From the NCBI GenBank assembly GCA_019911965.1, contig JAIOJF010000036.1, forward strand, positions 1 through 50,734: DNA of 50,734 nucleotides. Reading direction: 5' to 3'. Positions 28,357-49,356 of the stretch are shown here, one piece after another; positions within the stretch are counted from its first letter, which is position 1; every line of letters begins with the position of its first letter. This DNA is from Paracoccaceae bacterium (GTDB lineage: Bacteria; Pseudomonadota; Alphaproteobacteria; Rhodobacterales; Rhodobacteraceae). Below the pieces are notes generated by a model. The model did no database searches and was not told the DNA's origin. It worked only from the letters and a program-made list of their open reading frames with translations. A program made the position numbers and the translations under genes.

Positions 28357-28360
28357 TGGC

Positions 28361-33122: not shown

Positions 33123-34402
33123 GGCCGATCTCCGCTCCGGGCCCGCACCCCGGCAATGTCAGGGCGCGACGGCCCGGTACCGCCAAAGCGCCGCTGCACC
33201 AGCATTTCCAGATGCTCTGCGGTGACCGCGACGCAGCCGTTTTCCCGGGCAAATGCCTCGGCGCGCTGGCGCACGAAGCGGCGCACGAAGGGCGGCACCC
33301 GGTCCAGCCTTGCCTCGGCGGTGCTGGTCCAGGCGATGGCTTGTGGCGGCGCGATTTCCGGGATCACGCCGCTGCCGTCGGGCTGATAGGCGCATAGCCT
33401 GTCCTCGCCCATCAGATCGCCGCTTGCAGCGTAAGGGCGTGCGCGGCAACCACCGCAGACACCGGCATATTCGCAGATGCCGCAGCGACCCGTCAGCCGG
33501 GGGGCGCGAAGCTGCTGGAATACCGGCGCATTGTGCCAGATATCGGCGAATCTCAGGTCGCGCAGCGAACCGGCGCTCAGGTCCATATAGGGGCACGGGG
33601 TCACCTCGCCGCCGGGTGTTACGCGCGCGTAGCGGGTGCCGGCCAGACAGCCGCCCGCCTCGTAGCCATGCGCCATGGTGATCGGCCAGTCGGGATCAAG
33701 CTCAAGCGCCATGCGCTTGAAATGCGGCGCACATTTGGCGCGGATCATCATCCCTTCGCTGGCATGTGCAGCGCGGGTCAGGCGGCGCAGGGTACGGTCA
33801 TAGCCGTCGCGGCTGATATCGCTGACATGCCGTCCGCGCCCGGTGCAAACCAGAAAGAACACGTTCAGCGCAATCGCCCCGCAGGAGCGCGCAAAGGCAA
33901 TCATCGGCTCCAGTTCGTCGGCGGTGTCGTCGGTAACGGTGAAATGGATTTGCAGGCCCATCCCGGCACGGCGGCAGGCATCGATCCCGTGCATGGTGCG
34001 TACAAAGCTGCCGGGCAGGCCACGGAAGGCGTCATGCCGCTCCGGGTCCAGCGAATCAACGCTGATCCCGACACCTGCCACGCCCGCCGCCTGCAAGCCG
34101 GCAACGCGCCGGTCGTTCAGCGCCAGGCCGTTGGTGCCCACCACCACCATCAGCCCAAGGCCTGCGGCATGGCCTGCGATCAGTTCAAGATCCGGGCGCA
34201 ACAGCGGCTCGCCGCCGGTCAGCACCAGCATCGTCTCGTTGCTGAGGGTCGCGACATCGTCGATCAGGGCGCGGATCTCGGCGGTCGTCAGTTCCGCCGC
34301 GTCGGCCTCGTTTCGTGCTCCGGCATCAAGATAGCAATGGGCGCAGTTGAGGTTGCAGCGCCGGGTCAGGTTCAGGGCGACCAGATACGGTGCCTCCGCC
34401 AT
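33119..34402 (-). CDS. Radical SAM/SPASM haem-synthase-like enzyme with C-terminal PCP_red domain
   Basis: 427 residues. The radical SAM motif is CNLNCAHC (C16, C20, C23) with GGEP at 63-66. A SPASM-type region binds auxiliary clusters (GGCLAGTRYARVTPGGEVTP, then CGICEYAGVCGGCRA). This arrangement resembles the AhbD/NirJ enzymes of alternative haem b and haem d1 synthesis. Residues about 356-406 (IAWTSTAEARLDRVPPFVRR) are a PCP_red domain, the C-terminal domain of light-independent protochlorophyllide reductase BchB/ChlB. The gene lies 5 bp after the Usp fusion gene and overlaps hemG. A porphyrin side-chain reaction is likely; the product is unknown. Confidence 0.85.
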   Translation of the reverse strand: MAEAPYLVALNLTRRCNLNCAHCYLDAGARNEADAAELTTAEIRALIDDVATLSNETMLVLTGGEPLLRPDLELIAGHAAGLGLMVVVGTNGLALNDRRVAGLQAAGVAGVGISVDSLDPERHDAFRGLPGSFVRTMHGIDACRRAGMGLQIHFTVTDDTADELEPMIAFARSCGAIALNVFFLVCTGRGRHVSDISRDGYDRTLRRLTRAAHASEGMMIRAKCAPHFKRMALELDPDWPITMAHGYEAGGCLAGTRYARVTPGGEVTPCPYMDLSAGSLRDLRFADIWHNAPVFQQLRAPRLTGRCGICEYAGVCGGCRARPYAASGDLMGEDRLCAYQPDGSGVIPEIAPPQAIAWTSTAEARLDRVPPFVRRFVRQRAEAFARENGCVAVTAEHLEMLVQRRFGGTGPSRPDIAGVRARSGDRP

Positions 34403-34407
34403 CGGTA

Positions 34408-36048
34408 TCAGCCTTCGTCGGGCGGCGGAGCGGGATGGCCGCCGGACTGCATGTTCGCGTGCATGTTCCGCCGGGACGTCGCGATCACCGTTTCCAGCAG
34501 GTCTGGCGTGATCTTTGGTGCGGCCTGCTCGGCAGCCTCGGCCTCGGCCTTCAGGCGCAGGGTCTCGCGCACCATGTCCGGCACCAGCGCCAGCCGCGAC
34601 AGGGCGGCAGCACTCCAATATGGCAAGGTGTTGGCCCCGAGAAACGGCTGCACATGTACCGCCGCCACCCGGTCGGCACCGTCGCGCCGGGCGCGTTTTT
34701 CGGCGCGAAGCCGGATCGCCGCCACGATCGAGGCATCGCCACCACTGGCCGCCAGCGCCTCGGCCCCGGGGGACCAGGCAAGCGGGGCCTCGGGGCTGGC
34801 AATGCCGCCGAAATGCGGGCAGAGCTTTTGCGTCGCGCGTTCGATCAGTTCGCAGGTGATCACCGTATGCCCGCTTTCCTGGGCGAAGCGCTGCACCGCA
34901 AGCCGCACCATGCCGCGCGCCATCTCGGGCACGCGATCAAGCCTGGCCTCGGCCTCGGCCGTCCAGCGGATGGTTTCCTCGGCCAGCGCATCAAGCGGCG
35001 GCACGAAGGTTCCGGCACCAAGCCAGATATGGCAGGGCGCGCTGCGCAACAGGTTTTCCGCGTTGCCGCCGATATCCAGCCCGTCATCGGCATGGATGCC
35101 GGTCCGCCCGATCAGCAACAGGCTGGCACCGGTGCGCGCCAGACAGGCGGCGATGGCGACATGCGGCTTGCCGTCCAGCAATTCGGTGGTGACCGCAACG
35201 CCCTCCTGTTCGGCGATCCGGGCCGCCAGCGCCAGATGCGAGCGGTAGATTTTCGCCAGCCCGTCATCAATGATTTCCTCGTGCAGGCTTTCCTGCTCCT
35301 TGAAGCGGAATACCTTGCCGGCTTCGTCGCTCAGCACTCCGGCGATGCGGTTGAAGGCGACGTAGTGGAAATAGGGATCATAGGCCGCCACCACATGCAC
35401 CGGCACATCCAGCGCCCGCCCCAGCCGCAGCGCCATTTTCAACGCCCCGTAGCCCCGCGCCGAGCCATCGACGGCGGCCACCAGCGGCCCCGTGCCGATC
35501 GCGCTGGTGGGGTCGCGGATCACCAGCAGATCGCGCGTCACCCGCCGCGCCACCCGTTCGCAGACCGTGCCGATACCGGCACCCGGTACCGCGCCCAGCC
35601 CCTGTGCCCCAAGCGCCAGCAGATCGAAGCCGCCCGCCTCGACCGCCTCGACGATCTGGCGGTAATTCTTGCCCTCGGGGCTGAGCCTGCCATAGGCGAT
35701 ACCGGCGGCATCGCAGGCGGCACTGGCGCTGTCGTGATAGCTGTCGGAGATGATGCTGAGACCGCGCGTGATCAGGCTGTTATGCACCGCGCGCTGGTGT
35801 TCGATACCGTCCTCGGTGCGGTAGCGATCCGGCAAGCCGCCCTCCATCTGCTTGAAGCGGCGGTCGTGCAGGCGCGCGGCATAGGCGTGAATGCCGGTGA
35901 TCATGCCGCCTGCCACACCGGCCAGACGCACCGCCTCGGCTAGGGCGCGGTCTGCGTGGTCGGAGGCATCAAGCGCCACCAGGATCCGGCGCGGCAGGAT
36001 GTCCGGGGCCATATCCGTTGCGGCCAGGGCTTCAACCTTGTCCTTCAT
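34408..36048 (-). CDS. Tandem universal stress protein fused to repeated PCP_red domains
   Basis: 546 residues. Two UspA domains (about 21-178 and 186-345; RILVALDASD, LVAAVDGSARG, LLIGRTGIHADDG) are followed by three copies of the PCP_red motif: a clear one at about 360-405 (IRWTAEAEARLDRVPEMARG), a degenerate one at about 424-470, and a third at about 477-523. Usp domains bind nucleotides; PCP_red is otherwise known from protochlorophyllide reductase. The radical SAM protein encoded next has the same domain. A role in maturation or protection of the redox complex is an inference. It starts at ATG 36048 with GGAG and overlaps the gamma-subunit gene by 17 bp. Confidence 0.85.
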   Translation of the reverse strand: MKDKVEALAATDMAPDILPRRILVALDASDHADRALAEAVRLAGVAGGMITGIHAYAARLHDRRFKQMEGGLPDRYRTEDGIEHQRAVHNSLITRGLSIISDSYHDSASAACDAAGIAYGRLSPEGKNYRQIVEAVEAGGFDLLALGAQGLGAVPGAGIGTVCERVARRVTRDLLVIRDPTSAIGTGPLVAAVDGSARGYGALKMALRLGRALDVPVHVVAAYDPYFHYVAFNRIAGVLSDEAGKVFRFKEQESLHEEIIDDGLAKIYRSHLALAARIAEQEGVAVTTELLDGKPHVAIAACLARTGASLLLIGRTGIHADDGLDIGGNAENLLRSAPCHIWLGAGTFVPPLDALAEETIRWTAEAEARLDRVPEMARGMVRLAVQRFAQESGHTVITCELIERATQKLCPHFGGIASPEAPLAWSPGAEALAASGGDASIVAAIRLRAEKRARRDGADRVAAVHVQPFLGANTLPYWSAAALSRLALVPDMVRETLRLKAEAEAAEQAAPKITPDLLETVIATSRRNMHANMQSGGHPAPPPDEG

Positions 36049-37063
36049 CCTTGCCACTCCCTTCAACTTCTGCCCTGCCCTTCAGGAAGCGCAGGCCGCC
36101 AAGCTGTGCCGCCAACACACCGGCTACCGCTGCAATCGGCGCCCAGTAGAGCGCGTTGCTGACCGGTTGTTCCAGGCTGACGAAATACCAGGTCGAGACC
36201 GCCTTTTCGCCGCCCCGCTCCAGTCGTGCGCCGTCCCAGACCGCAAAGGCCATCGGTACTGTCATGCCGGGTTCAAAGGCAAAGCCGCCCTGTTGGCGCG
36301 GCACCGTCAGGACCACCTTCCAGCGGTCATCGGCAGGTGCGCCGTTGCCAGCGCCGTCCTGGGCCGCTTCATCGACCGGCGTCAAAGTGCCGAACCCTTC
36401 CGCCGACAGCTTTTCAACCGGGGTGCGGGCCTGAAGCGCCATGTCGCTCAGCGGGCTGCCGGCGGCGGCGGAAGTCAGGTAGACTTGGTCTTCGGTATAA
36501 TCGCCGAGCCCGGCAATCTCGCCCGCAGGCCGCCCGGAATAGGGATACCAGTCGGCGATCATGTCGGGGTGACGCTGCGTGACATCGTGGTCATGGCCAT
36601 ATTGCCAATCCGCCTTCCACTGGTAGATCGTCACCGGCTTGCCCGGCTCGCCCATCGCGAAATAGGGGATGCCATGGGCCGGATCGGCGGGAAATTCCAC
36701 TGCCACCGCGTCGCGGAAATCGGCCACCCCTGCCAGTTCGGTATTGGCCAGCGCGTCGCCCCATTCAAACAGCAGCGCCAGCATCTCGCCGTCGTAAAGC
36801 GCGCGCAAGGTCAGTTCCGTGACCCCTGCCTCATAGACCCGGGGCTTGACTACCGCCTGCGGTGCCAGCGGCACCGACAGGATATCCGCCCCGGCCCATG
36901 CCTCGTCATCCGGCGCGGTCGGCACCTTCTGTACGGATTTCGCCAGCAGGGTCGCCTTTTCCTGGGCGCGGGCAGGCCCCACGCCGAACGCCATCGCCGA
37001 GGCGGCCATCAGCGGAGTGGCCAGGAATTTCCGGCGTGCCAGTCTTGTGTCGCCCAAATCCAT
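36032..37063 (-). CDS. nxrC: Haem b gamma subunit of NXR-like complex (EbdC/NxrC type)
   Basis: 343 residues. A Tat signal (LARRKFLAT at about 8-16, then hydrophobic, AQ cleavage near 34) exports it. The middle matches the haem b-binding gamma subunits of type II DMSO reductases (EbdC, DdhC, ClrC, NxrC). M137 (YFAMG) and K287 (GEKAVSTWY) are the likely axial haem ligands. A C-terminal membrane helix (about 305-323) would anchor the complex to the periplasmic face; soluble gammas such as ClrC lack it. It passes electrons between the beta-subunit clusters and cytochrome c. AGGAGG precedes ATG 37063. Confidence 0.85.
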   Translation of the reverse strand: MDLGDTRLARRKFLATPLMAASAMAFGVGPARAQEKATLLAKSVQKVPTAPDDEAWAGADILSVPLAPQAVVKPRVYEAGVTELTLRALYDGEMLALLFEWGDALANTELAGVADFRDAVAVEFPADPAHGIPYFAMGEPGKPVTIYQWKADWQYGHDHDVTQRHPDMIADWYPYSGRPAGEIAGLGDYTEDQVYLTSAAAGSPLSDMALQARTPVEKLSAEGFGTLTPVDEAAQDGAGNGAPADDRWKVVLTVPRQQGGFAFEPGMTVPMAFAVWDGARLERGGEKAVSTWYFVSLEQPVSNALYWAPIAAVAGVLAAQLGGLRFLKGRAEVEGSGKDEGQG

Positions 37064-37065
37064 GC

Positions 37066-37845
37066 TCACCTCCTGTTTTCTGCGAAATCACCGGCGGCAC
37101 CCCGGCATTCGCCGCAGCCGCCATCCTCGACCCGGTCGAGCGAACCTTCATTGACGAACGGCTCGGCACGGCGCGGGATGCCTGCCGCCGCCATCTCCTG
37201 TGCCAGGAAGTCATCCATAAGGTCGGCCCAGACGGCAAACGGGCCGGGTGCCGGGCGCTGTTGCAACCGATGGGCAAAACTGAACGCCCAGAACCCGAGA
37301 TGGCTTTCCAGAAATAACCGCTGCGCCTTGGCACAGAACGCGACCCGTTCGGCACCGTGATCCTGACCTTCGGCAAGCGCCTGTTTCAGGCTGAGAAATT
37401 CCATGAATTCCAGCTCGAAGGCGATGTGATCGGGGCGGTCATGCACGCCCTCGGCCAGCGCCAGCCCGAAGGCGCGGTAAAAGCCGACGACATCGGCCAG
37501 CGTCTGGGATTTCTCGAAGATATGCGCCTGACCGTATTCGCCGCCATAGGGCGGGCAATCCTTGGAGACCGCGTGGCCGAACACCGACAGATGCGCGCGT
37601 TTCAGACTGTCGTCATCCAGCGCGGCGATGGCCGCATTGGTCTCGCTGGTCGCCGCTAGGCCAAGTGCCGCCATCGCCGCCCTGGTGACCGACCACTGGT
37701 GCTGCAACGCCTTTGCGCCACCGGGTACCGGATCAGAAAACGCCAGCGCCAGAAAGCGGTAGATTTCCGCCCGCGCCGGGGCTGGCCGGGGACCTGCCGC
37801 CGGGCTGGCGTCAGATCGAGTTGTAGTGCTTGTCCGGGCGCTCAT
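37066..37845 (-). CDS. TorD/DmsD-family molybdoenzyme chaperone
   Basis: 259 residues, all-helical. LSVFGHAVSKDCPPYGGEYG and FEKSQTLADVVGFYRAFGLAL are the TorD-family core. It should bind the Tat signal of the alpha subunit and hold the apoenzyme for cofactor insertion in the cytoplasm. The C-terminal tail has several Cys (GGCGECRG). It overlaps the beta-subunit gene by 35 bp and is followed directly by the gamma gene, as in known nxr, clr and ebd operons. Confidence 0.9.
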   Translation of the reverse strand: MSARTSTTTRSDASPAAGPRPAPARAEIYRFLALAFSDPVPGGAKALQHQWSVTRAAMAALGLAATSETNAAIAALDDDSLKRAHLSVFGHAVSKDCPPYGGEYGQAHIFEKSQTLADVVGFYRAFGLALAEGVHDRPDHIAFELEFMEFLSLKQALAEGQDHGAERVAFCAKAQRLFLESHLGFWAFSFAHRLQQRPAPGPFAVWADLMDDFLAQEMAAAGIPRRAEPFVNEGSLDRVEDGGCGECRGAAGDFAENRR

Positions 37846-39082
37846 GGCGCGGCTCCTCTACGCTGACGCGGGCCACCTCGCGGCCGTCCTGGCCGTAACC
37901 GATCACCGTGTCGTTGAAGATTTCCCAGGGCTTGCCACCCACGGTCCGCTCGAATATCTTCTCGCCTTCGATGATCTCGTAGCGGAACACGATGGTCTGG
38001 CTGGCGCGGAACAATTGCAGCACCGCCATCAATTCGCGCGACGGATTGGCATAGGCCTCGATCGCCGCATCGACGCCGGGGCCGAACATCTGTCGCAGAT
38101 AGGGGCGCGGGGCCCAGCGTGGCGGGATGTAATAGCCGTTCGGTTCCGTGCCGAATTGCGGATAGAGCGGCAGCGCCACGCGTGCGACCTTGACGAGGTA
38201 ATATAGCGGATTGCTCCGGTCCTCGGCCCAGCCACCTTGCTCGTCGATCGTGACCAGCCCCTGCAGGCGAATCTTGCCGACGCAGGCGGCCATGCAGCGG
38301 GTTTCCATCGGTTGACCGTCGGTCAGGGGATCGGTGCCCTCGATACGCGGATAACAGGCGATGCACTTTTCGCTGACCCTTGTGGTGGGGCGGAACATCG
38401 GCTTCTTGTAGGGGCATTGCGACACGCATTTGCGATAGCCTCGGCACCGCTTCTGGTCGATCAGCACGATACCGTCCTCGGGCCGCTTGTAGATCGCGCC
38501 GCGCGGACAGGCGGCAAGGCAGGCCGGATAGGTGCAATGGTTGCACAACCGCTGGAGATAGAAGAACCAGGTGCCGTGTTCCGGCAGGCTGGCGGATTGC
38601 ATGTTCAGCTTGTCACGGTTGTCCTTGCCGCCGGTGGCGGTGTCCTCATAGAAATTCGGCGACGACCATTCCTGATCGCTGGGCTCATAACCAAGCGCCA
38701 CTTCCTCGCGCTGCGGGGCCTGATGCGCGGCCTCGAAGATGGTCATGCCGTCATAGGTGCCATAGGGCGCGACCGCTTCCGTGCCGCCGGGTTTCCATGC
38801 CGCGTTTCGCCCTGCCGCCTGATGCGCATTATCCAGCTGTTGCAGCAGCTTCACGTCCCAGGATTGCGGGTAACCGCCGAACGGCTTGGTCTCGACATTG
38901 TTCCACCACATGTATTCCTGCCCCTTGGAGAAGGTCCATGTGGACTTGCAGGCCATCGTGCAGGTCTGGCAGGCAATGCAGCGGTTGATGTTGAAGACAA
39001 AGGCGAATTGCCGGTCGGGATGCGCCTCGGCATGGGGATAGTGCATGTTCCGGCCAAGCTGCCAGTTGAAGACGTCAGGCAT
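37811..39082 (-). CDS. nxrB: Iron-sulfur beta subunit of NXR-like complex
   Basis: 423 residues, no own signal, so exported with alpha by the Tat system. It carries four Fe-S clusters. The first ligands are CIACQTCTMAC (C35, C38, C41, C45), followed by CNHCTYPACLAACP, CRGYRKCVSQCP and CIACYPRIEGTDP. Tyr in CRGYRKC replaces a Cys, as Trp does in NarH, giving a [3Fe-4S] cluster. The N-terminus MPDVFNWQLGRNMHYPH, WNNVETKPFGGYP, LPLYPQFGTEPNGYYIPPRW and RQMFGPGVD closely resemble NxrB of Nitrospira as I remember it. NarH is similar only in the cluster motifs. It overlaps the 92-residue gene. Confidence 0.9.
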   Translation of the reverse strand: MPDVFNWQLGRNMHYPHAEAHPDRQFAFVFNINRCIACQTCTMACKSTWTFSKGQEYMWWNNVETKPFGGYPQSWDVKLLQQLDNAHQAAGRNAAWKPGGTEAVAPYGTYDGMTIFEAAHQAPQREEVALGYEPSDQEWSSPNFYEDTATGGKDNRDKLNMQSASLPEHGTWFFYLQRLCNHCTYPACLAACPRGAIYKRPEDGIVLIDQKRCRGYRKCVSQCPYKKPMFRPTTRVSEKCIACYPRIEGTDPLTDGQPMETRCMAACVGKIRLQGLVTIDEQGGWAEDRSNPLYYLVKVARVALPLYPQFGTEPNGYYIPPRWAPRPYLRQMFGPGVDAAIEAYANPSRELMAVLQLFRASQTIVFRYEIIEGEKIFERTVGGKPWEIFNDTVIGYGQDGREVARVSVEEPRHERPDKHYNSI

Positions 39083-39353
39083 TGCCGGTCCCTCCTTCGT
39101 TCCTGTGCGTCACCGGACGCCATCCGGCACAAACGCGGTCGATCAGGCCACGCACATGCGCCTCGCCCCGGTCGAGATAAATGCGGTGCGTGGCCTGAAA
39201 GACCGGGCGCGTGAACAGCGTCATCAGCCGTTGTCTGGACCAGCCCATCAGCAGGAATTCCTCGATCAGACATTCCGCCATCAGGTCGGGATCGCCGCCG
39301 GGCAGCGGAACCGCCACAAACTCCATCGGATCGTCTTTTGCCGCAGGTTTCAT
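39075..39353 (-). CDS. Small conserved protein between alpha and beta genes
   Basis: 92 residues, helical, no signal or membrane segment. Visible features are LMAECLIEEFLLMGWSRQRL, LFTRPVFQATHRIYLDRGE and a C-terminal basic helix. The ATG overlaps the alpha stop (TGATG), and the 3' end overlaps the beta start, so it is translated with both subunits. I do not recognise the family with certainty. A role in assembly or cluster insertion is likely from position only. Confidence 0.75.
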   Translation of the reverse strand: MKPAAKDDPMEFVAVPLPGGDPDLMAECLIEEFLLMGWSRQRLMTLFTRPVFQATHRIYLDRGEAHVRGLIDRVCAGWRPVTHRNEGGTGNA

Positions 39354-42300
39354 CAGGCTTTCTCCACCCTGGTCAGATCGCCGGCCAGATAGCGTGCCAT
39401 CGTCGCGTCCTCGTGGCCGGGCGTGAAACCAGTCTTGACCGGCTCCCAGACGCCTTCGCCGCCCAGCCCGCCAGCCTCGGCGCGTTCGATCCTGACCAGC
39501 GTTTCCTTGGGCACGGTGTTGACCGCGTGGTTGTCCACATCAAAGCCGAAGGTGAAGGCCATCGAGCCGGTCTTCTTGTGAAACAGGCTGTCGGTCTGGT
39601 GCATGATCGGAGCCCAGCCGCGGGTGATGCTCTGATGCGAGCCATAGCGGAAATTTGACTGATAGCCGGTGTCACCGGCCAATGCGCGCCCGTCCTCGCG
39701 CCCCTCATGCGCCTTCACGGTGCGCTCTGACGCTATCCAGGCGCTGTGCTTGGTCATCACCACGTTGTAGGGATAGGCGGGGTTGAATTTCACCCGGGTC
39801 AGCAGGCGGAACGCCTTGTGCCGCTCGGGCGCGTCCTCCCATTTCACGAAGGGGCGGTCGGCGGGGTTGGCATCGACATAGATGTAATCGCCATCCTCGA
39901 TCCCCATTTCCTTGGCGGCATCTGGGTTCATGTGCACCTGCCAGTCCGCCACCCCCGGCGAGCGCCGGTCGCGCCGATAGGGATCGCCGAAATTCGTGCT
40001 CCAGATCCAGTTCCAGTCGGTTGTCGCCCAGGAGGAATGAGTGGTGTGCCGGCTTTTCGGGGTCATGCAGTAGAACGAGAAACCGTCCCGCCAGAGGGGA
40101 TTCTTGGTCGCCCTCACCTCCGCCCACGACATTTTGTTATTGGCAATCGCCCGCAGGTCGGCATCCAGCAGATCGCCCTGCAACATCTCGGGCGTCACTC
40201 CATAATTCTGCGGCCGGATATAGGGGCTGGACGAGACGATCACGTTCGGCATGTAGGGCGTCGCCTCGGGGGCTTCACGGTGGACGATCAGATTTTCGCC
40301 GTACTCGATCGCCTCGGGGATATCGCAATAGGCATTCAGCCGCCCGGTATCGGTATAAAACGGGATGTGGTCATGCACCTGTTCAAAAAAGGCGACACGC
40401 GGATAGGTGCGAAACAGCATCAGCGCCGCGCCCGGCTCACCGTATTTGCCGGCCATGATGTCAGAGACCTGATAGCCCTTGGTGGTGGTCGAGCCATCAA
40501 TCACCCGTTGCAAATAGACCCGGCTTTTGCCTTCCAGCAGGAACTTCCAGTGGTTGCGGAAACGGTCGTCGCCGGTCAGCTCGGTCAGTTTTTCCGATAC
40601 CAGCGCAAAGATCATGCCGTCATCCTTGCTGTCGTATAGCGGCTTGATACCGTCGCCGCCCCACATCTGCAAAAACGGATTGGAACAGGACGCGCCGAAT
40701 TCCAGGTCCTGAAATTCCATCCATGAATTCGCCGGCAGGATCACATCGGCATATTCCGCTGAGCCGGTCCATTCCACCTGCTGATCAACGATCAGGTCGA
40801 TCTTGGGGTTGATATTGGTGATCAGATGATAGGCCCATTTTGCCTGATTGATCAGGTTGGCGTTGCAATACCACATCGCCTTGGTCGGTGACGGCAGATG
40901 GGTGTGGCCGGTGAAGTTCTTGCGCCCAGCGCCGGGTGTATCCACGATCATCGGGCGCTCACCGAACCCCCAATAAGACATTTCCTCGCCATGCAGCAAT
41001 TCGCGGATGTTGTCGGGGCCGATTGTGCCGTTTTCATCCAGCACCTGATTGAACGGGTCTTCCTTGACCCAGGCACCCGCCCCTGGCCCAGACCAGGGCG
41101 AGGCCTGCATCAACGCCCCTTTGTAATTGCCCGCCCAGGTATGCGCCCCGCTGCCGGGAATCCCGATCGAGCCGATCAGCATCAGCGGCATCATGGTGGC
41201 GCGGTTGTGCAGGGTGGCGTGGTAATAGTGGTTGATGCCTTCGCCGTAATGGATCGCCACCGGATAGGCCTCACGCGGCTTGCCGATGAAGTCGGGGTCC
41301 CAGAAGCGGCGGCCGAAATCCTTGACGATCTGTTCCAGCAGATCCTCGGGTGCGCCGGTGATCTCGGCGGTGGTGGCCAGATCGTAATCCGCCAGATGTT
41401 CACGGTACATCGACCAGACGGTCATCACCTCGACCTCGCTGCCATCCACCAGCGTCACGCGGCCTTTCCAGTCCAGTGCCGGATCAATGCCCGCCTGAGT
41501 GATATGGCGGCCCACATCATCGCGGCTGATCGGTAGTGCTGTGCCCGAGTTCAGATCATGCACCAGAAAATCGCCAAGCCGGGTGCGCTGTTCGCCGGTC
41601 AGGCCTTGAATCTTGAAGCTCGGCCCTTTGCTGATATCCTTGTCGGTATAATCGGCGATCACCTCTTCAGGTTTCAGCCGTTTCAGCGTGTCGGTGCGTA
41701 CCAGCGTCGGGAAATCGGTGAATTGCTTGACGAAATCGGTGTCGTACCAGCCGCGCTCCATCAACTCGCGCGTGGCGTAAAGAAAGATCGAGGTGTCCGA
41801 CAGGCCGGGGCGTACCGAAATCCAGTAATCCGCCTTTGTGGCCGAGGGGCTGTATTCCGGCGCGATCACCACCGAACGCGCGCCGCGCTCCATCAGTTCG
41901 GTCAGCCAATGCGCATCGGGCATCTTGTTCTCGATCAGGTTCTTGCCAACCTGCACGATGAATTTGGTGAAGCGGATGTCGTTCAGATCAATATCCGAGG
42001 TCTGCAATCCGTGTACAAACGGCTGCCCCGGGGCCTGATCGCCGCGCCAGGTATATTCCGACCATTCGCGCCCGCCCTTGGCCTCGTCCGGGCCGACACC
42101 GCGCACATGGGCATCGGCCAGCCCCAGGAGGTTGCACATGCGAAACAGGCCGAACTTGCCGATCACGCCGTGGATCGGCAGGGATGAGCCAAGCTTGATG
42201 GTGCGCGTACCGGCCCCTTCCCAATGCGCCAGCATTTCCTCGTCGTAGCCGTCCTTGTCGATCAGCCGGGCGCGGCCCTCGTCGCCGCTATAGGTTTCGG

Positions 42301-42904
42301 CAATGGCGATCAGCCCGCGGGCCAGATAGCGCGTCGCGTCGTCCCAGCTCATCCGGGTGAACGTGTCGGAGCCACGGCTGTTGAACTTGTAGGTGTCGCG
42401 CAATTCGGGACTGTCGGACAATGACGGGAACCCGGCATCGGCCCAAGCCTTCCAGCCATCGCGGATCATCGGCCCCTTGGCGCGGTATGGCCCGTAAACC
42501 CGGCGGTGCATGGTAAAGCCCTTCAGGCACATGCGCGGATTCCAGGCATAGGTGGCCTTGTTGCCGTAGAGGTCGGAATAGCGGTGGTAATCGTAATTCT
42601 GCTCGGATCGGGTCACGATGCCGTTGCGCATGAATGCCTTGACGCGGCACATATGCGTGTCGTTCGGCGCGCAGATATAGGTGAAGGTGCGGTCATAGGC
42701 GTATTGATCGCGGTAGACCTTCTCCCAGTCGCGGTCGGGGTAATATTCCAGCGGGTTGTCGATCTTTGTTACCGGGGCCAGCGCGCGGCCCTCGAATACC
42801 GGTTGCGCGGCCAGCCGCCCAAGCGCATCCGCCCCTACCACCACGCCCGCCGCCGCTGCGCCGCCGCGAAGTACCTGCCGTCTGCTGAGTGTCTTTCTGG
42901 TCAT
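39353..42904 (-). CDS. nxrA: Molybdopterin catalytic alpha subunit, periplasmic nitrite oxidoreductase-like
   Basis: 1183 residues of the type II DMSO reductase family; chlorate, selenate and ethylbenzene enzymes are shorter (~900-980). A Tat signal (LSRRQVLRG at 6-14) sends it to the periplasm. The FS0 cluster site reads C78-x3-D82-x3-C86 ... C126, with Asp in place of one Cys. DLYGNKATYAWNPRMCLKGF, the stretch GDQAPGQPFVHG (D289, possible Mo ligand) and KADYWISVRPG resemble NxrA of Nitrospira and anammox bacteria. It would oxidise nitrite to nitrate, or run in reverse on nitrate or another oxyanion. ATG 42904 is chosen because it places the twin arginines correctly; a GTG at 42952 is also in frame. 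Confidence 0.88.
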   Translation of the reverse strand: MTRKTLSRRQVLRGGAAAAGVVVGADALGRLAAQPVFEGRALAPVTKIDNPLEYYPDRDWEKVYRDQYAYDRTFTYICAPNDTHMCRVKAFMRNGIVTRSEQNYDYHRYSDLYGNKATYAWNPRMCLKGFTMHRRVYGPYRAKGPMIRDGWKAWADAGFPSLSDSPELRDTYKFNSRGSDTFTRMSWDDATRYLARGLIAIAETYSGDEGRARLIDKDGYDEEMLAHWEGAGTRTIKLGSSLPIHGVIGKFGLFRMCNLLGLADAHVRGVGPDEAKGGREWSEYTWRGDQAPGQPFVHGLQTSDIDLNDIRFTKFIVQVGKNLIENKMPDAHWLTELMERGARSVVIAPEYSPSATKADYWISVRPGLSDTSIFLYATRELMERGWYDTDFVKQFTDFPTLVRTDTLKRLKPEEVIADYTDKDISKGPSFKIQGLTGEQRTRLGDFLVHDLNSGTALPISRDDVGRHITQAGIDPALDWKGRVTLVDGSEVEVMTVWSMYREHLADYDLATTAEITGAPEDLLEQIVKDFGRRFWDPDFIGKPREAYPVAIHYGEGINHYYHATLHNRATMMPLMLIGSIGIPGSGAHTWAGNYKGALMQASPWSGPGAGAWVKEDPFNQVLDENGTIGPDNIRELLHGEEMSYWGFGERPMIVDTPGAGRKNFTGHTHLPSPTKAMWYCNANLINQAKWAYHLITNINPKIDLIVDQQVEWTGSAEYADVILPANSWMEFQDLEFGASCSNPFLQMWGGDGIKPLYDSKDDGMIFALVSEKLTELTGDDRFRNHWKFLLEGKSRVYLQRVIDGSTTTKGYQVSDIMAGKYGEPGAALMLFRTYPRVAFFEQVHDHIPFYTDTGRLNAYCDIPEAIEYGENLIVHREAPEATPYMPNVIVSSSPYIRPQNYGVTPEMLQGDLLDADLRAIANNKMSWAEVRATKNPLWRDGFSFYCMTPKSRHTTHSSWATTDWNWIWSTNFGDPYRRDRRSPGVADWQVHMNPDAAKEMGIEDGDYIYVDANPADRPFVKWEDAPERHKAFRLLTRVKFNPAYPYNVVMTKHSAWIASERTVKAHEGREDGRALAGDTGYQSNFRYGSHQSITRGWAPIMHQTDSLFHKKTGSMAFTFGFDVDNHAVNTVPKETLVRIERAEAGGLGGEGVWEPVKTGFTPGHEDATMARYLAGDLTRVEKA

Positions 42905-42941
42905 GGCATCTGGTCCCCGGTTCGGTGTTTTCCTGCGGTGG

Positions 42942-43718
42942 TCATTCGGCACGCGGCGTGTATCCTGTCTCGCGGTAGAGATAGAGGATCACCTGCCACG
43001 CTTCGTCAGACGTGAAATCGTTGCTGTGAAGGGATGAGGCATTGGCATCGCCTGGTGCCGCGACCCAGCGCGGCATGGCGCTGTTGAACTGGTTCTGCAA
43101 ACCGCCGATGGTCAGCCGCCAGTAGACATAGGGCAGCGTCAGCTGGGCGATGGTGCCTGCATCACGGAAATTCGCCGGCCGGATCGGATAGCGGAACCCG
43201 GGCGCCGCCGACCCGGCACCGTCCAGCTTGTCGCCGTGGCAGATGGCGCAATTGGCCACGTACAGAACCTTGCCGGCGGCGATGTCGCTGTCGCGCCAGT
43301 TGGCGGGTACCAATGCCCAGGGCGGCACCACGATTTGCGCCAGCGTCGCCTCGCCCACGGTCGGGTGGCGCTGGAAAATCTCGACCGGCGGCGCATAGGT
43401 CGGGCGCACGCTGTCATAGGCCCACCACCCCGCCACCAGCGGCAACAAAGCAAGCATCGCCAGCCGCTGCACCTTCAGCACGCCACCTTCGCCGGGCTGC
43501 GCCAGGAAGAAATCCCAGAACCGCCGGATGCGGGTGTCTTCCAGCGTGATGTGGATGACGACACCCAGCACGATGAAGCCCATGTAAAGCAGGATCACGC
43601 TGTGCGGGATCACCGGGCGGACCGATTTCAGCAGGATGAAGGCGACGATGATGATCAGCGCGGAGCCGACCGGAAGCGGCAGCCAGTTGCGGCCTGCGGT
43701 GCCGGGTTTGTTGCTCAT
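42942..43718 (-). CDS. Membrane-anchored monohaem cytochrome c
   Basis: 258 residues. Three hydrophobic segments near 15-31, 38-57 and 85-100 anchor it. A C-terminal periplasmic domain has one haem site CAICH (157-161) and a candidate Met ligand in AMPRW. It probably carries electrons between the molybdoenzyme and the diheme cytochrome or bd-like subunit. It overlaps the diheme gene by four bases, and the alpha gene follows 37 bp downstream. Confidence 0.88.
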   Translation of the reverse strand: MSNKPGTAGRNWLPLPVGSALIIIVAFILLKSVRPVIPHSVILLYMGFIVLGVVIHITLEDTRIRRFWDFFLAQPGEGGVLKVQRLAMLALLPLVAGWWAYDSVRPTYAPPVEIFQRHPTVGEATLAQIVVPPWALVPANWRDSDIAAGKVLYVANCAICHGDKLDGAGSAAPGFRYPIRPANFRDAGTIAQLTLPYVYWRLTIGGLQNQFNSAMPRWVAAPGDANASSLHSNDFTSDEAWQVILYLYRETGYTPRAE

Positions 43719-44545
43719 TGCCCGCCCTCCTGCGTGATCAGGTATTCGGTGATTGCGTAAAGCTGCGCCGCATTCAGCCGTTCGCCGTAATCGTCCGGCA
43801 TGGTTTCAGCCGGGAATTCGGCATCTTCAAAAGCGCGCGGATCGACGATGGCCTGCATCACATAGGCCACCGGATCGGCCCCGGCCTTCGCGGCGGCGGC
43901 AACCAGCAATGACGCCTGGAACGGCGGTCCGACCAGCACTTCACCAGCCTCAAGGCTGTGGCAGCCGAGGCAGTCGAACGCATCGAGCATCGCCTCGGGA
44001 TCGTTCGGCACCGCTTCCGGCGGGGCCGCCACCGGGGCGGCACCCGCATCCGGCGGCGCGGGCAGGCTGGCCAGCGTCACGCTGGGGGTGCCGCCAAGCG
44101 ATTCAAGATAGGCCACCACCGCCGAAACCTCCGCGCGGTTCAGCTTGGCCGGCGCCTTGACCGAGGATGGCATGATGTTGGAAAACCCCTCGACCAGATA
44201 GGCGCCGGGTGCGTAAAGCGCCTGCGTCAGGTAGCCGACCAGCGTTTCGGGCCCGCCCGCAACGCCGTTCGCGCGCCGCACCGCCAGCGCATCGAGGTTC
44301 GGGCCACGTCCCTGGCCCTTGATGCCGCCACCCGGCTCGATCGTGTGGCAACTCATGCAGCCGCGCTCGCGCACGATGGCCTGGCCCATCACCGCCAGTT
44401 CGCCCGGCGTTGCACCGGCATCAATCTGCCTGACCTTCGGCGGGTCCCAGCGGGTTTGCGGGATCCAGTTGGCGAACCAGACAAAGAACCCCAGCACCAG
44501 CAGCGCCGGCAGCGTCGCACCGGCATATGTCGTCAGCGCCCTCAT
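43715..44545 (-). CDS. Membrane-anchored diheme cytochrome c
   Basis: 276 residues. An N-terminal helix (about 7-27) anchors two c-type domains with CMSCH (63-67) and CLGCH (192-196), joined by a Pro/Ala-rich linker near 160-185. Candidate Met ligands are in NIMPSS and ETMPDD. It lies between the bd-like oxidase gene (four-base overlap) and the monohaem cytochrome gene, so an electron relay among these proteins is likely. Confidence 0.9.
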   Translation of the reverse strand: MRALTTYAGATLPALLVLGFFVWFANWIPQTRWDPPKVRQIDAGATPGELAVMGQAIVRERGCMSCHTIEPGGGIKGQGRGPNLDALAVRRANGVAGGPETLVGYLTQALYAPGAYLVEGFSNIMPSSVKAPAKLNRAEVSAVVAYLESLGGTPSVTLASLPAPPDAGAAPVAAPPEAVPNDPEAMLDAFDCLGCHSLEAGEVLVGPPFQASLLVAAAAKAGADPVAYVMQAIVDPRAFEDAEFPAETMPDDYGERLNAAQLYAITEYLITQEGGQ

Positions 44546-46311
44546 GCCGCAGCCTCCCGTGCCTCATCGCCGAATTCCGGCAGCGTGTCGCGCCCGGACA
44601 GGGCCGAGATGGCGAAGGCGATGCCGAGCAGGACAAAGAAGATCAGCGTGATCGCCGTCACCACAATCGCCGCCTCGCCTAGTGTCGGCAGACCGGCACT
44701 GACCGACGTATCCTCGATCAGGCCGAAGACATGCCAGTTCAGCCGCGCGCCGCTGCGGGCGTAGCCCATCAGCCCCATCAGCCAGACGATCACGAAGGCC
44801 AGCAGGATCAGGATATACTGCCCGCGCCGCGGCATCGTCCCCCAGCGGACCGCAGCGCGGGTTTCCGCACCTTTCAGCAGCGCCAGATCAATCCCGAAGG
44901 TGATGACGATGCCGCCGATCAGCACCAGAATCTGCCAGATCGAGGTCTTGATGCGGATATCGGCGGGCGCGAAATAGCCGTAGATACCGAGGCCGAGGAT
45001 GATCAGCGCCATCAGCGCGATCAGCGCCCATTCCACCTGCGTTCCGGTTCTTGCCCAGGGCACCACCGGCACCTTGCCGGCGCGGCGATACAAGAGGTAG
45101 CTTACATAAAGCACCACCAGGATCAGCGTCACCGCGATCATCTTCGGTGCCATCAGGCCCAGTGCCCCCAGCAGCGGATGAAACTGGCCGGTGCTTTCCT
45201 CGATCGAGGCGGCCATCGAATGCGGCGTCGCCCAGACCATGAAACCCGCGATCAGCGCCACGTTGAATACCGGCACCATCCGCCGCTGCGGCTCGGAGCC
45301 CGGAATGCGCAACAGCCCCAGCCAAGCGTAATAGGCCGCACCGATGAACAGGATGGCAATGACGATGGCCTGAATGATGAACAGCCAGGACAGCACCCCG
45401 CCCATCAGCGTGACGCCGTAGGTGGCGGAATAGGCGAACAGTTCGAACCCGAAGTAATAGCCCGCAAACGGCAGGAACAGCATGGTGAACAGCGCGATCA
45501 GATTGCCGGTATAGCCCATCCAGTCATAAAGTGCGCGTTCGGCCTCGGTGCGTGCCGACAGGAACCGGTAGGCCGCATAGGCGGCACAAAGCAGTGCGCC
45601 AAAGGTGATGTTGGCGATCAGCCGGTGCACGTTCAGCGGCATCCAGCCCGGATTCCACACCGCATCATAAAGGCTGATCAGCGCCCCAGCCTCGTCCACC
45701 CCGCCCGGGGTCATCATGAAGGTCGCCCAGGCATTGGCGATGAACATGACGATGGTGCCAAAGATGTTCAGCAACAGGCCCAGCACGATATGGACCCACT
45801 TGCGGTTCCCCTGAAGCCGGTTCCAGGTGTAATACCACAGGTAGAGGAAAATCGTCTCGGCAACGAAAAACATCGGGTAGATGACGAAGGTCGGCCCGAA
45901 GGTCTCGGTCATATAGGCCATCAGGCGCGGATAGGCGCTGAACAGCAGCATGCCCAGAAACGCGCCCGAAATCGCGGTCAGCGAATAGGCCGCAGGCAAC
46001 AGCCGCGCCATTTCATGAGCCATCCAGTCATAGCGCGCCGCCCCGGCGGGATCGCGCCGCGCCATGCGCCAGCCGAACACCTCGATCGCCAGCGCGAACA
46101 TCGGCACTGCCAGCACGAAGGCGGCGAAATCCAGATGCAGTTGCGCCGCCACCCAGACCGCCAGCCGGCTGTCGATCAGTGCCGGTTCCGCATAATCGCG
46201 GATCGGCGCGCTCTGAGCCAGCGCCGGGCCGGTCGCGGCAATCAGAAGCCCGGCCAGCGCAAGCCCGGCCACAGGCATCCATCTTCGGTCAGCGTCGGCG
46301 GTCCATCCCAT
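44542..46311 (-). CDS. Cytochrome bd-like quinol/cytochrome oxidase subunit I
   Basis: 589 residues with a cleavable N-terminal signal (AGLALAGLLIAATGPALA) and about 14 membrane helices, longer than classical CydA. SRLAVWVAAQLHLDFAAF holds H59, at the position of the conserved N-terminal haem His of CydA. MFFVAETIFLYLWYYTW and NVHRLIANITFG hold further ligand candidates. No CydB gene is nearby. Similar bd-like proteins occur in Nitrospira and have been proposed as terminal oxidase or NXR partners. Here it would link the cytochromes c to oxygen or to the quinone pool. GGAGG precedes the ATG. Confidence 0.85.
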   Translation of the reverse strand: MGWTADADRRWMPVAGLALAGLLIAATGPALAQSAPIRDYAEPALIDSRLAVWVAAQLHLDFAAFVLAVPMFALAIEVFGWRMARRDPAGAARYDWMAHEMARLLPAAYSLTAISGAFLGMLLFSAYPRLMAYMTETFGPTFVIYPMFFVAETIFLYLWYYTWNRLQGNRKWVHIVLGLLLNIFGTIVMFIANAWATFMMTPGGVDEAGALISLYDAVWNPGWMPLNVHRLIANITFGALLCAAYAAYRFLSARTEAERALYDWMGYTGNLIALFTMLFLPFAGYYFGFELFAYSATYGVTLMGGVLSWLFIIQAIVIAILFIGAAYYAWLGLLRIPGSEPQRRMVPVFNVALIAGFMVWATPHSMAASIEESTGQFHPLLGALGLMAPKMIAVTLILVVLYVSYLLYRRAGKVPVVPWARTGTQVEWALIALMALIILGLGIYGYFAPADIRIKTSIWQILVLIGGIVITFGIDLALLKGAETRAAVRWGTMPRRGQYILILLAFVIVWLMGLMGYARSGARLNWHVFGLIEDTSVSAGLPTLGEAAIVVTAITLIFFVLLGIAFAISALSGRDTLPEFGDEAREAAA

Positions 46312-46338
46312 CCCGTTGTTCCTCCGGTCGTCCCTGCG

Positions 46339-46563
46339 CTATTGCGGCATCCCGATATTGCCGGGCTCCGCATCCCAAAGCCCGTCGCACCCGGCATCAG
46401 TCAGCCGTTCCATGAAGGCGCACATTTCGGTCAGTTTGCTGAAATGCCGTTCTTCACCGGACTGGACGTGCTGGATATGCCCGCGCCACGCCGGGCTGGC
46501 ATTCTGGTGTCGCTCCAGCCAGATGCGGGCAACAAACGAAGCCGCATCTTCCCCACGTCGCAT
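46339..46563 (-). CDS. Small conserved protein at the operon start
   Basis: 74 residues: SFVARIWLERHQNASPAWRG, then HIQHVQSGEERHFSKLTEM and CAFMERL. This pattern (FVxRIW, WRGxIxHVxSGExxxF) belongs to a small soluble family of unknown function that I recall near respiratory genes. It is the first gene after the proposed SARP operator. It starts at ATG 46563 with GGGGG about 5 bases upstream. Confidence 0.7.
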   Translation of the reverse strand: MRRGEDAASFVARIWLERHQNASPAWRGHIQHVQSGEERHFSKLTEMCAFMERLTDAGCDGLWDAEPGNIGMPQ

Positions 46564-46608
46564 CCGCACCCCCTGATTCCACGTTGCGCAAAAACCCTAG
46601 GGCTGTCC

Positions 46609-46628
46609 GGTGACAGGCTGGTAACAGG
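46609..46628 (-). promoter_or_regulatory. Candidate SARP operator: 11-bp-period direct repeat
   Basis: On the plus strand GGTGACAGG (from 46609) and GGTAACAGG (from 46620) repeat with an 11-bp period, one helical turn. Read leftward they are CCTGTTACC then CCTGTCACC, 46 bp before the first gene of the operon. SARP/BTAD activators typically bind such direct repeats just upstream of a -35 box, and the gene for one lies 20 bp away. Confidence 0.55.
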
Positions 46629-46647
46629 GCTTTTCGGGGGATGCGGT

Positions 46648-47793
46648 TCAGGTCCGCGTGGCGCGGATACGCTCGGCCAGGCGGCGGGTCTCGGGCAGGG
46701 GCTCGACCCCGAGTTCGCGGTCCAGCGTCTCGCGGCAGCGGCGATACTGGCGTTCGGCCTCTTCCGCGCGCCCCTGCGCCAGCAGGCATTCCATCCGCAT
46801 CCGGTGGAACACCTCGCGGCAGCTTTCGCGGTCCAGCGCGTCGTTGCAGACCCGCCCGGCCTCGCCGTAGCGGTGCTGTTCGAACAGGGTTTCCGCCAGA
46901 TATTCGGCCGCCTCGAAATACAATTCGCGCAGGCGCATGCGATCTTCGGCGCACCATTCCTCGTAGGGGTCATCCTCAAGATAATCGCCGCGATACAGCC
47001 GGAGCGCATCGCCAAGGCAGGTTACCGCGTCATCGGCACGAAACCGGCGAACATGGCGGATCCCCTCGGCAACCAGGCGTTCGAATACCGCAACGTCGAG
47101 AAGCACCGCGCCGGTGCGCAGCCCATAGGCTTCGTCCGCATGTTCCACCAGATCGCCGCGACCAAGCAATTGCCGCAGCGAGTAGACCGCGACCTTCAAT
47201 CTGTCGCGCCCGTGCTTTTCATCGACCCCGGGCCACAGCAATTCGACCAGACGGTCCCGCACCATTAGGTGGCCGGGATGCATCGCCATGATTTTCAGAA
47301 GCTTGACGGCAGCCTTGCGTTGCCACGTCTCGACAGAAACCGGGCATTCGTTCAGCGACACCGAAAAGCGCCCGAGCATGCGGATATGCAAGGGCAGCGG
47401 CATCGCCGGCTTAGCGCCTGTGCCGTCCAGCGGGTGGACAAAGATCAGCGCGCGGGTGCGGGATGGATCGCCGGGTTCATCCGCCGGTACGATCAGCGAA
47501 CTCATACTGACGCGGATCGGCTCCTGGCCGGAACCGGACACCGAACAATCATCGACACTGAACGGCGCGCCATTCCTGAAGCAGATGCCGCCGTGGCAAT
47601 CCGGGCCGCACAAGGGCTCGCCCGAGGGCAGTTCCGCCGCGACGACATCGCTGCACCGGCACCCGACCGCATCAGCCGCCGCCAGTCCGAAGATGTATTC
47701 CGCCGACTTGTTCCACGCCAATACGCGCAGATCCCCCGATACGGCAAATGCCGCCTCGGATGACAATCGTACGTATTCGCGCGCCTTGATCAT
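46648..47793 (-). CDS. PAS-SARP (OmpR-type winged helix plus BTAD) transcriptional activator
   Basis: 381 residues. An N-terminal PAS domain (about 8-118) is rich in Cys: C45, C47, C62, C66, C71, C83, including CGPDCHGGIC. It may bind a metal cluster or sense redox state. It is followed by an OmpR-like winged helix (about 135-230; KAAVKLLKIMAMHPG, LWPGV) and a BTAD helical domain (about 240-375). It is encoded just upstream of the NXR-like operon on the same strand and most likely activates it. ATG 47793 is chosen over TTG 47808. A weak promoter (TTGCCG at 47865-47870, TAGGCT at 47842-47847, 17-bp spacer) lies upstream. Confidence 0.85.
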   Translation of the reverse strand: MIKAREYVRLSSEAAFAVSGDLRVLAWNKSAEYIFGLAAADAVGCRCSDVVAAELPSGEPLCGPDCHGGICFRNGAPFSVDDCSVSGSGQEPIRVSMSSLIVPADEPGDPSRTRALIFVHPLDGTGAKPAMPLPLHIRMLGRFSVSLNECPVSVETWQRKAAVKLLKIMAMHPGHLMVRDRLVELLWPGVDEKHGRDRLKVAVYSLRQLLGRGDLVEHADEAYGLRTGAVLLDVAVFERLVAEGIRHVRRFRADDAVTCLGDALRLYRGDYLEDDPYEEWCAEDRMRLRELYFEAAEYLAETLFEQHRYGEAGRVCNDALDRESCREVFHRMRMECLLAQGRAEEAERQYRRCRETLDRELGVEPLPETRRLAERIRATRT

Positions 47794-47966
47794 CGAAAAA
47801 CCCCGCAATCGGGACGGCTTTTACGCGATTCTGCAAGAGCCAGCCTACAAAAGTTCGCGCGATCCGGCAATGCTTGCAAGTGGGATAGGTGTTTCGGTAA
47901 TCCCCCCCGAAAGTAAGGGGCTGCGGAAGTAGAATTTTCTCGGCATGATGAACGAGGAGAATTCGA

Positions 47967-48110: not shown

Positions 48111-48164
48111 TCTGAGGGATAGCTCTCGTGCTACGCTACCGCTTTCATCAGCATGGAGGAGAAG

Positions 48165-49350: not shown

Positions 49351-49356
49351 AAAGCA

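Follow-up and report, generated by a model that had tools for sequence, protein, structure and literature searches.

An operon for a periplasmic-type nitrite oxidoreductase on a probably transferable 16-kb block in a Rhodobacteraceae genome

The locus and its genes

Contig JAIOJF010000036.1 of a Paracoccaceae genome (assembly GCA_019911965.1; 60 contigs, 3.67 Mb, 99.4% complete) was analyzed over its whole length of 50,734 bases, referred to here as the window. Positions 31,695-47,808 on the minus strand hold a SARP-type regulator gene and an apparent operon that encodes, among other proteins, the three subunits of a nitrite oxidoreductase (NXR) (Table 1). From high to low coordinates, the operon reads: a bd-like membrane protein, a diheme cytochrome c, a monoheme cytochrome c, nxrA, a small gene designated orfX, nxrB, torD and nxrC, followed by genes for a Usp/PCP_red protein, an AhbD/NirJ2-like radical SAM protein and protoporphyrinogen oxidase (ppo). 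The regulator gene, which ends at 46648, is separated from the bd-like gene by 336 bases. Within the ten junctions from the bd-like gene to ppo, taking the listed start codons, six are overlaps of 1-8 bases and two are overlaps of 35; the two with gaps span 37 bases (cytochrome c to the alpha subunit ATG) and 5 bases (Usp to the radical SAM ATG at 34402).

A first-pass annotation, made from the letters of the window, had proposed a Nitrospira/anammox-type periplasmic NXR cluster at 36032-46563, with all genes on one strand and overlapping. Every gene it named is confirmed as present on the minus strand, with overlaps. The lower limit coincides with the end of the gamma subunit gene, and the upper one overshoots the bd-like gene start by 252 bases. 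The gene list was correct, but the unit is larger, since orfX, the Usp/PCP_red, AhbD-like and ppo genes, and the SARP-type regulator also belong to it.

Table 1. Features of the NXR unit in the window
Feature	Position	Strand	Basis
PAS + SARP/BTAD-type transcriptional regulator	46648..47808	-	Pfam BTAD 106.6 bits, PAS_4; within collinear block
bd-like multi-transmembrane membrane protein, distant CydA relative	44542..46311	-	Pfam Cyt_bd_oxida_I 57.5 bits; 11 predicted transmembrane segments
Diheme cytochrome c (CMSCH, CLGCH), one N-terminal transmembrane/signal segment	43715..44545	-	Pfam Cytochrom_C, motif count, hydropathy
Membrane-anchored monoheme cytochrome c (CAICH), two predicted transmembrane helices	42942..43718	-	Pfam Cytochrom_C, one CxxCH
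nxrA, molybdopterin catalytic subunit, twin-arginine motif, 1183 amino acids from ATG	39353..42904	-	Score, tree, ligands
orfX, 92-residue conserved three-helix protein between nxrA and nxrB	39075..39353	-	phmmer, alignment, AlphaFold2
nxrB, iron-sulfur subunit, 15 Cys	37811..39082	-	Score, alignment, Cys count, tree
TorD-type chaperone	37066..37845	-	Pfam Nitrate_red_del; TIGR03482 87.7 bits (below cut-off of 152.3)
nxrC, heme b subunit, ARRKF twin-arginine motif	36032..37069	-	Pfam EB_dh, score, alignment, hydropathy
Usp domain + two PCP_red domains	34408..36066	-	Pfam Usp; PCP_red in two stretches
AhbD/NirJ2-like radical SAM protein, C-terminal PCP_red	33119..34402	-	TIGR04545 305 bits (below cut-off of 500); Pfam Radical_SAM + PCP_red
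Protoporphyrinogen oxidase (ppo)	31695..33122	-	TIGR00562 225.5 bits (above cut-off of 97.85)
Collinear block common to the window and MAG HKST-UBA115	31770..47813		blastn

Subunits and cofactor ligands

The predicted alpha subunit matched NxrA of the anammox bacterium Kuenenia stuttgartiensis (PDB 7b04) with 1581 bits over residues 39-1197, compared with 162 bits for perchlorate reductase PcrA, 111 bits at best for NarG and 95 bits for ethylbenzene dehydrogenase EbdA. Its score to the narG family model TIGR01580 was 138 bits, where the family cut-off is 1084. The beta subunit showed the same ranking (Kuenenia NxrB, 640 bits; PcrB, 219; EbdB, 205; NarH, 182), as did the gamma subunit at lower scores (NxrC, 71.7 bits; EbdC, 47). 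Near full-length matches of this strength between the alpha and beta subunits and a solved NXR leave no concern over chance resemblance.

All three subunits also retain the cofactor ligands of the Kuenenia enzyme, for which the residues given with that structure served as reference (PMC8387239; this and the other papers cited by PMC number are represented here by extracts of their text). Alpha residues are numbered from GTG 42952, an alternative start upstream of the ATG. In the alignment, the ligands of iron-sulfur cluster FS0 (C67/D71/C75/C115 in Kuenenia) correspond to C94/D98/C102/C142, the substrate-side N70 to N97, and the molybdenum ligand D275 to D305. The 15 cysteines of the beta subunit align with Kuenenia NxrB and include the Cys ligands for four iron-sulfur clusters, and the heme b ligands of NxrC, M155/K305, are M139/K289 in the gamma subunit. 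NXR and nitrate reductase alike can have Asp or His as an FS0 ligand (PMC8387239), so the FS0 aspartate is uninformative as to direction and was dropped as a marker of it.

The alpha N-terminus carries a twin-arginine motif, SRRQVLRGG, recognized by eye, and no export signal was seen in the beta subunit itself. The gamma subunit, first described as a Tat-exported heme b protein, has a twin-arginine motif and the heme b ligands. The C-terminal anchor also ascribed to it is less sure: the segment at about residues 306-329 shows only moderate hydrophobicity (best 19-residue mean 1.53), and a membrane anchor is possible there, which would set this subunit apart from anammox NXR.

Phylogenetic placement

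Relatives were collected by a profile scan of genome contigs with a three-sequence alpha alignment, which gave 494 confirmed relatives, the best 80 of which were kept; lower-identity groups, including Nitrospira, may therefore be missing. Once L001, L002, L092, L110 and L111 had been left out and L109 dropped as too short, 107 alpha sequences were available, 62 of which entered the alpha tree, and the beta tree was built from 38 hand-chosen sequences. Both are quick maximum-likelihood trees supported by the Shimodaira-Hasegawa-like approximate likelihood-ratio test (SH-aLRT) only and rooted by choice on NarG/NarH, with long outgroup branches flagged by the program. Nitrospira, Nitrobacter, named Nitrotoga, SerA and DdhA are absent from them.

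Among the best 80 of the 494 relatives, identity over the best alpha segment was 86-90% for metagenome-assembled genomes (MAGs) of Rhodobacteraceae and Alphaproteobacteria, and mostly 74-78% for those of Burkholderiales, Beta- and Gammaproteobacteria and Hyphomicrobiaceae. It was mostly 58-66% for non-anammox planctomycetes, Acidobacteria, NC10 and Kiritimatiellia, 56-58% for named anammox bacteria (Brocadia, Brocadiaceae, Kuenenia, Scalindua) and 53-54% for seven Nitrospinota loci. The alpha tree places the window with four Rhodobacteraceae/Alphaproteobacteria MAG sequences in a five-row clade (SH-aLRT 100), nested in a 21-row clade of proteobacterial MAGs together with L070, titled Deltaproteobacteria (SH-aLRT 100). 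Both lie in a 47-row NXR clade that also holds the anammox and Nitrospina sequences (SH-aLRT 100). One betaproteobacterial sequence (L021, 64% identical) sits outside the 21-row clade. In the beta tree the window groups with two Rhodobacteraceae MAGs (100), within a 27-row NXR clade (SH-aLRT 100).

Outside the alpha NXR clade fall NarG of E. coli, Azospirillum and Thermus, which form a clade of their own, ClrA on a long branch, and a nine-row sister clade of about 40% identity. An NC10 locus (L054) and an acidobacterial one (L076) each have a second, diverged nxrA nearby, and the second copy of the former belongs to that sister clade.

In a sample that lacks Nitrobacter, the alpha subunit thus does not group with cytoplasmic NarG. 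Nor does it group with the chlorate, perchlorate and selenate reductases, DdhA and EbdA, as judged from the tree for ClrA and from scores for PcrA and EbdA; SerA and DdhA were not in the sample. The tree comparison proposed in the first-pass annotation accordingly leaves both alpha and beta subunits outside the NarG and ClrA types. These distances, set against the closeness to NXR, make it very improbable that the main substrate is another oxyanion or a hydrocarbon (chlorate, perchlorate, selenate or an ethylbenzene-like compound). The alpha subunit moreover keeps the Asn proposed to coordinate the substrate, which is Ile in EbdA (PMC8387239), and no chlorite dismutase is found among the operon genes, to which that search was confined. 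Scores, trees and ligand residues together support the assignment to the periplasmic NXR type of anammox bacteria, Nitrospina and Nitrospira, in agreement with the first-pass proposal.

A conserved module on a 16-kb block

To describe the module we counted homologues, defined as phmmer matches above 60 bits with the window proteins, in the 21 loci listed as proteobacterial (L070 included, L029 excluded), 15 of which were judged uncut by contig ends. All 15 uncut loci have homologues of the bd-like protein, one of the two cytochromes c (cytc2), nxrA, nxrB, torD, nxrC, Usp and AhbD, and 14 of the 15 have those of the other cytochrome c (cytc1), orfX and ppo. The regulator is less constant, with a SARP homologue in 6 of the 21 loci (5 of the 15 uncut). 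At L029, titled Proteobacteria and 61% identical, phmmer gave no match to the bd-like protein, a cytochrome c, Usp or Ppo. Eight loci (L009, L010, L012, L013, L016, L018, L022 and L053) have their usp and ppo homologues upstream, on the opposite strand.

A blastn comparison of the whole window with MAG HKST-UBA115 (L006) returned a single match, from 31,770 to 47,813 (79.8% identity over 16,130 columns), and no further similarity beyond the block ends, where L006 continues for 5.1 and 2.4 kb. On the left side, the match to L007 stops at 31,786 and that to L008 at 31,766, where these two loci continue for another 0.3 and 1.3 kb. Since similarity to L006 stops sharply on both sides and L007 and L008 share the left edge, the block of about 16 kb probably transfers as a unit. 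Genes for an IS110-type transposase and an rve-type integrase (48153-49992) lie just past its right end. The ferrochelatase gene hemH (about 30580-31605; 262 bits to TIGR00109) was considered as a member and rejected: nucleotide similarity stops at 31,770 and the matches at L006-L008 are weak (59-100 bits), so we take hemH to be a neighbor of the island. The listed hemH open reading frame extends upstream through another frame of ppo, and we read the hemH-labelled phmmer matches at L006-L008 as out-of-frame matches.

None of nine genus mates has a match at E<=1e-30. Among 147 relatives searched at the same threshold there were two matches, the genome itself and one at 39% identity (G105); at E<=1e-60, 2 of 394 genomes of the family matched, its own included. 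In the phylum 21 of 398 matched at E<=1e-60, and the 20 other than its own are only 39-41% identical. These 39-41% genomes fall outside the clade of the window and are likely a Nitrotoga-like counterpart. A plasmid origin of the enzyme was also considered and rejected; a tblastn search of 72,556 plasmid records gave 213 with a match, all below 60% identity. The sharp ends of the block held in common with L006, along with the absence from all nine genus mates, support the earlier suggestion of a mobile module.

The same absence, and the facts that the window is one entire contig out of the 60 assembled and carries insertion sequence (IS) genes at its right end, could also point to an assembly or binning artefact, the contig belonging to another organism. 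We consider this highly improbable. Measured against the average of seven other genome stretches, tetranucleotide correlation came to 0.989 in the island and 0.990 in the 20-kb flank on its left, both inside the 0.985-0.995 spanned by the seven stretches, which each contribute to that average. Other NXR loci gave 0.968 (L006) and -0.01 to 0.912 (six more distant ones). Composition deviates in the outermost left 12 kb, with type I restriction genes (0.945), and in the 2.9 kb on the right that carry the IS genes (0.782). The same block is also found in other Rhodobacteraceae-type MAGs, and the match in another genome of the family (G153) coincides in coordinates and identity with the locus of MAG Rhodobacteraceae HKST-UBA85 (L007). 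That coincidence supports a Rhodobacteraceae genome as host, in line with the Rhodobacterales origin first suspected, and misbinning of the contig is unlikely.

The bd-like protein, heme-related genes and orfX

The bd-like protein had no NCBIfam match at E<=0.001 and scored only 34 bits against the best bd oxidase in the PDB. Its His59, Glu152 and His229 align with residues that we take to be the heme ligands of CydA, and in the same alignment the first of two CydA Glu positions is Tyr145. The label of bd-like oxidase given at first thus stands as to distant kinship with CydA, while oxidase activity is putative; the protein is a putative electron acceptor or oxidase.

The Usp/PCP_red, AhbD-like and ppo genes most likely serve heme supply or insertion. 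The PCP_red domains on the Usp and AhbD-like proteins are named after protochlorophyllide reductase and are conserved next to NXR in proteobacteria. Several anammox NXR loci (L057, L062, L064, L066 and L069) have a Usp homologue as well. In two planctomycete NXR loci (L036 and L037), homologues of the AhbD-like protein and of protoporphyrinogen oxidase lie a few kb from nxrA, which suggests that the link between heme genes and NXR is wider than the proteobacteria. The SARP-type gene likely regulates the operon.

A phmmer match to orfX was found in 49 of 95 loci holding both A and B, in proteobacterial, planctomycete, NC10 and other loci; phmmer found none in anammox or Nitrospina loci. Six residues (D8, P9, E32, G37, P50 and G63) are invariant over 31 aligned sequences. 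The AlphaFold2 model has three helices and a mean predicted local distance difference test score of 83.7. Membership of a known family or fold was rejected: four members searched against Pfam gave no match at E<=1, and Foldseek against the PDB gave none at E<=0.001.

Nitrogen and carbon metabolism of the host

The host genome encodes a cbb operon with RuBisCO, phosphoribulokinase, transketolase, glyceraldehyde-3-phosphate dehydrogenase, phosphoglycerate kinase and aldolase. The RuBisCO is presumably form II, going by its best NCBIfam match and what we take the name of that family to mean. RuBisCO occurs in 10 of 10 genus members searched. Three heme-copper oxidase subunits exceed the Pfam cut-off, one of them with ccoNOP-like neighbors as judged by eye from the open reading frames. 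For denitrification, the host has NapA as well as NirS-type cytochrome d1 and NirJ; neither NirK nor NarG was found at E<=1e-20. NapA is found in none of seven tested genus mates and cytochrome d1 in four, and compared with these seven (G001-G003 and G005-G008) the host (G000) shows an apparent swap of nitrate reductases, with NapA in place of NarG. In the 20 other NXR-bearing genomes, NarG is clear in 14 (13 above the cut-off, one a 906-bit part), NapA is present in 4 and cytochrome d1 in 15.

Two further observations concern oxidases. At L177, positions 8136-9893 encode a 585-residue heme-copper-oxidase-like protein (209 bits to COX1). Several other NXR-bearing genomes (G830, G833, G840-G844 and G846) have matches of comparable frame length and score at a distance of 3-23 kb from their best cytochrome d1 match. 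Phototrophic nitrite oxidation was rejected, as the photosynthetic reaction center family PF00124 is present in 0 of 31 genomes, the host included.

Direction of the reaction

We favor nitrite oxidation for three reasons. The nearest characterized kin of the enzyme are NXRs; the module brings its own electron exit, in the form of a Met/Lys heme b and cytochromes c; and for nitrate reduction the host already has NapA, and 14 of the 20 other carriers have NarG. It is therefore fairly probable, in our judgment, that the operon encodes a complete periplasmic NXR on a transferable 16-kb block, which oxidizes nitrite and feeds cytochrome c. A high potential has been attributed to the Met/Lys heme b of NxrC (PMC8387239). 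The partners needed by a nitrite oxidizer, form II RuBisCO in a cbb operon and heme-copper oxidases, are present, and by its gene content the host may be an overlooked nitrite oxidizer.

During nitrite oxidation, NxrA and NxrB would be exported jointly via the twin-arginine translocation route, and NxrC separately, with its heme b inserted beforehand. The molybdenum site would join nitrite with oxygen from water to give nitrate, and the two electrons would run through iron-sulfur clusters FS0-FS4 to the heme b of NxrC, then through the diheme and membrane-bound cytochromes c to either the bd-like protein or the heme-copper oxidases of the host. The module would give a facultative denitrifier with a Calvin operon, Nap and NirS energy from nitrite under oxygen, and a carrier free of RuBisCO might use nitrite as an additional electron donor. 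Non-autotrophic nitrite oxidation has been raised for reactor MAGs (PMC9306079).

Several points weigh against nitrite oxidation. The Kuenenia NXR runs in both directions in vitro (PMC8387239), and the nitrate reducers Thermogutta and Methanoperedens belong to the wider clade (PMC10732223). RuBisCO is patchy among carriers: of 21 other proteobacterial genomes with NXR, it is found in 9 (in one of them as a fragment), and it is missing from three of the four other Rhodobacteraceae-type carriers, so Calvin-cycle autotrophy is no general partner of NXR. NarG exceeds the cut-off in all seven tested genus mates, unlike the host. Oxygen reduction by the bd-like protein is putative, and we count it as unproven because the protein is a distant relative of CydA in which Tyr145 replaces the first Glu.

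Some of the same observations would suit this enzyme running in reverse, as a periplasmic nitrate reductase that replaces NarG and feeds NirS, with quinol electrons delivered via the bd-like protein and cytochromes c: the reversibility in vitro and the nitrate reducers of the wider clade, the lack of NarG in a host whose tested genus mates all have it, and the presence of NirS-type cytochrome d1 with NirJ. We nevertheless regard reversal as rather unlikely. The NapA of the host, missing in the genus mates, already makes up for the loss of NarG, which 14 of the 20 other carriers retain. Moreover, no quinol-linked subunit of the NarI, NapC or NrfD type was recognized in the operon, for which the bd-like protein might substitute. 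That cytochrome c would be an unusual donor for nitrate respiration is an argument that we dropped, because Nap is itself fed by c-type cytochromes.

Returning to nitrite oxidation, a broader proposal is that a self-contained 16-kb nitrite-oxidation island, comprising NXR with its own cytochromes c and bd-like protein, genes for heme supply and the regulator, has spread horizontally among proteobacteria and makes denitrifying Rhodobacteraceae and Burkholderiales facultative, often non-autotrophic, nitrite oxidizers. We offer this tentatively, holding it slightly more doubtful than probable. Nitrite oxidation is commonly seen as the work of a few specialized, slow-growing autotrophs. If the module oxidizes nitrite, Rhodobacteraceae and Burkholderiales that look like denitrifiers would contribute to nitrate formation while escaping surveys that target known nitrite oxidizers, and they would form an unrecognized guild of facultative nitrite oxidizers. 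Such carriers might also provide a genetically tractable host for the NXR family; in anammox research the enzyme can be neither expressed heterologously nor mutated (PMC8387239).

Relation to known systems

With the Kuenenia NxrABC the window shares homologous A, B and C subunits and the same molybdenum, FS0 and heme ligands, but not the gene arrangement. Here the order is A-orfX-B-TorD-C, in one operon with the bd-like and cytochrome c genes, whereas in those anammox loci where these genes are seen the order is C-B-TorD-A, with no orfX match. The Nitrospina NXR is likewise periplasmic in type and falls in the same clade; the Nitrospira enzyme is of the same periplasmic type as that of Nitrospina. 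Unlike the window, the Nitrospinota flanks, some of them short, gave no phmmer homologue of the bd-like protein, cytc1, cytc2, orfX, Usp, AhbD or Ppo.

The enzyme had been expected to widen the known range of such NXRs, and this is partly new, since periplasmic Nxr is already on record in proteobacterial (PMC9306079) and Planctomycetota MAGs (PMC10732223). Seven MAGs from an anammox reactor (PRO3, PRO6, PRO11, PRO12, CFX1, CFX9 and ARM1, with PRO3 and PRO6 called proteobacterial) have a periplasmic Nxr of the group of nitrite-oxidizing and anammox bacteria, its direction left open (PMC9306079). They have the same kind of enzyme and are mostly non-autotrophic, while the extracts of that paper mention neither Rhodobacteraceae nor island ends nor an accessory operon. 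The Burkholderiaceae isolate DTUPRO3 (L034), which has homologues of nxrA (cut), orfX, nxrB, TorD, nxrC and AhbD, shares a name with one of these MAGs. For the Planctomycetota, 19 Nxr-type sequences in MAGs have been described (PMC10732223). Planctomycete loci resemble the window in belonging to the same wide clade, with non-anammox alpha subunits mostly 60-63% identical and an orfX match in many; they differ in that NxrC, where found, is upstream of NxrA, and in that homologues of the bd-like protein and cytochromes c of the window were not found. The NXR of Ca. Nitrotoga is, like that of the window, periplasmic and proteobacterial, with a Tat signal on its alpha subunit, but it belongs to a sister clade (PMC6050957).

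Within the Rhodobacteraceae, nxrAB of unspecified type has been noted beside narGHI in Marivivens (PMC11758582), and the extracts of PMC11327836, PMC12342949, PMC6824324 and PMC9950273 contain no report of the present enzyme in the family. The open-licence literature, a sample that makes for a weak negative, gave no report of this NXR type in Rhodobacteraceae or of the island. As far as we have seen, then, the enzyme is known, and the host family, the operon make-up and the island are new.

Other genes in the window

An ARAGORN call of a tmRNA at 14980-15519 is false, as it sits inside an enoyl-CoA hydratase gene on the opposite strand (14855-15634). Positions 12008-29350 contain genes for acyl-CoA dehydrogenases, enoyl-CoA hydratases, AMP-binding CoA ligase-like proteins and a branched-chain-type ABC transporter. 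These genes, along with one for a benzoyl-CoA reductase subunit elsewhere in the genome (L175), hint at degradation of aromatic acids by the host. Type I restriction-modification genes for HsdM, HsdS and HsdR occupy 1373-7785 at the left contig end, in a stretch of lower GC content (59%).

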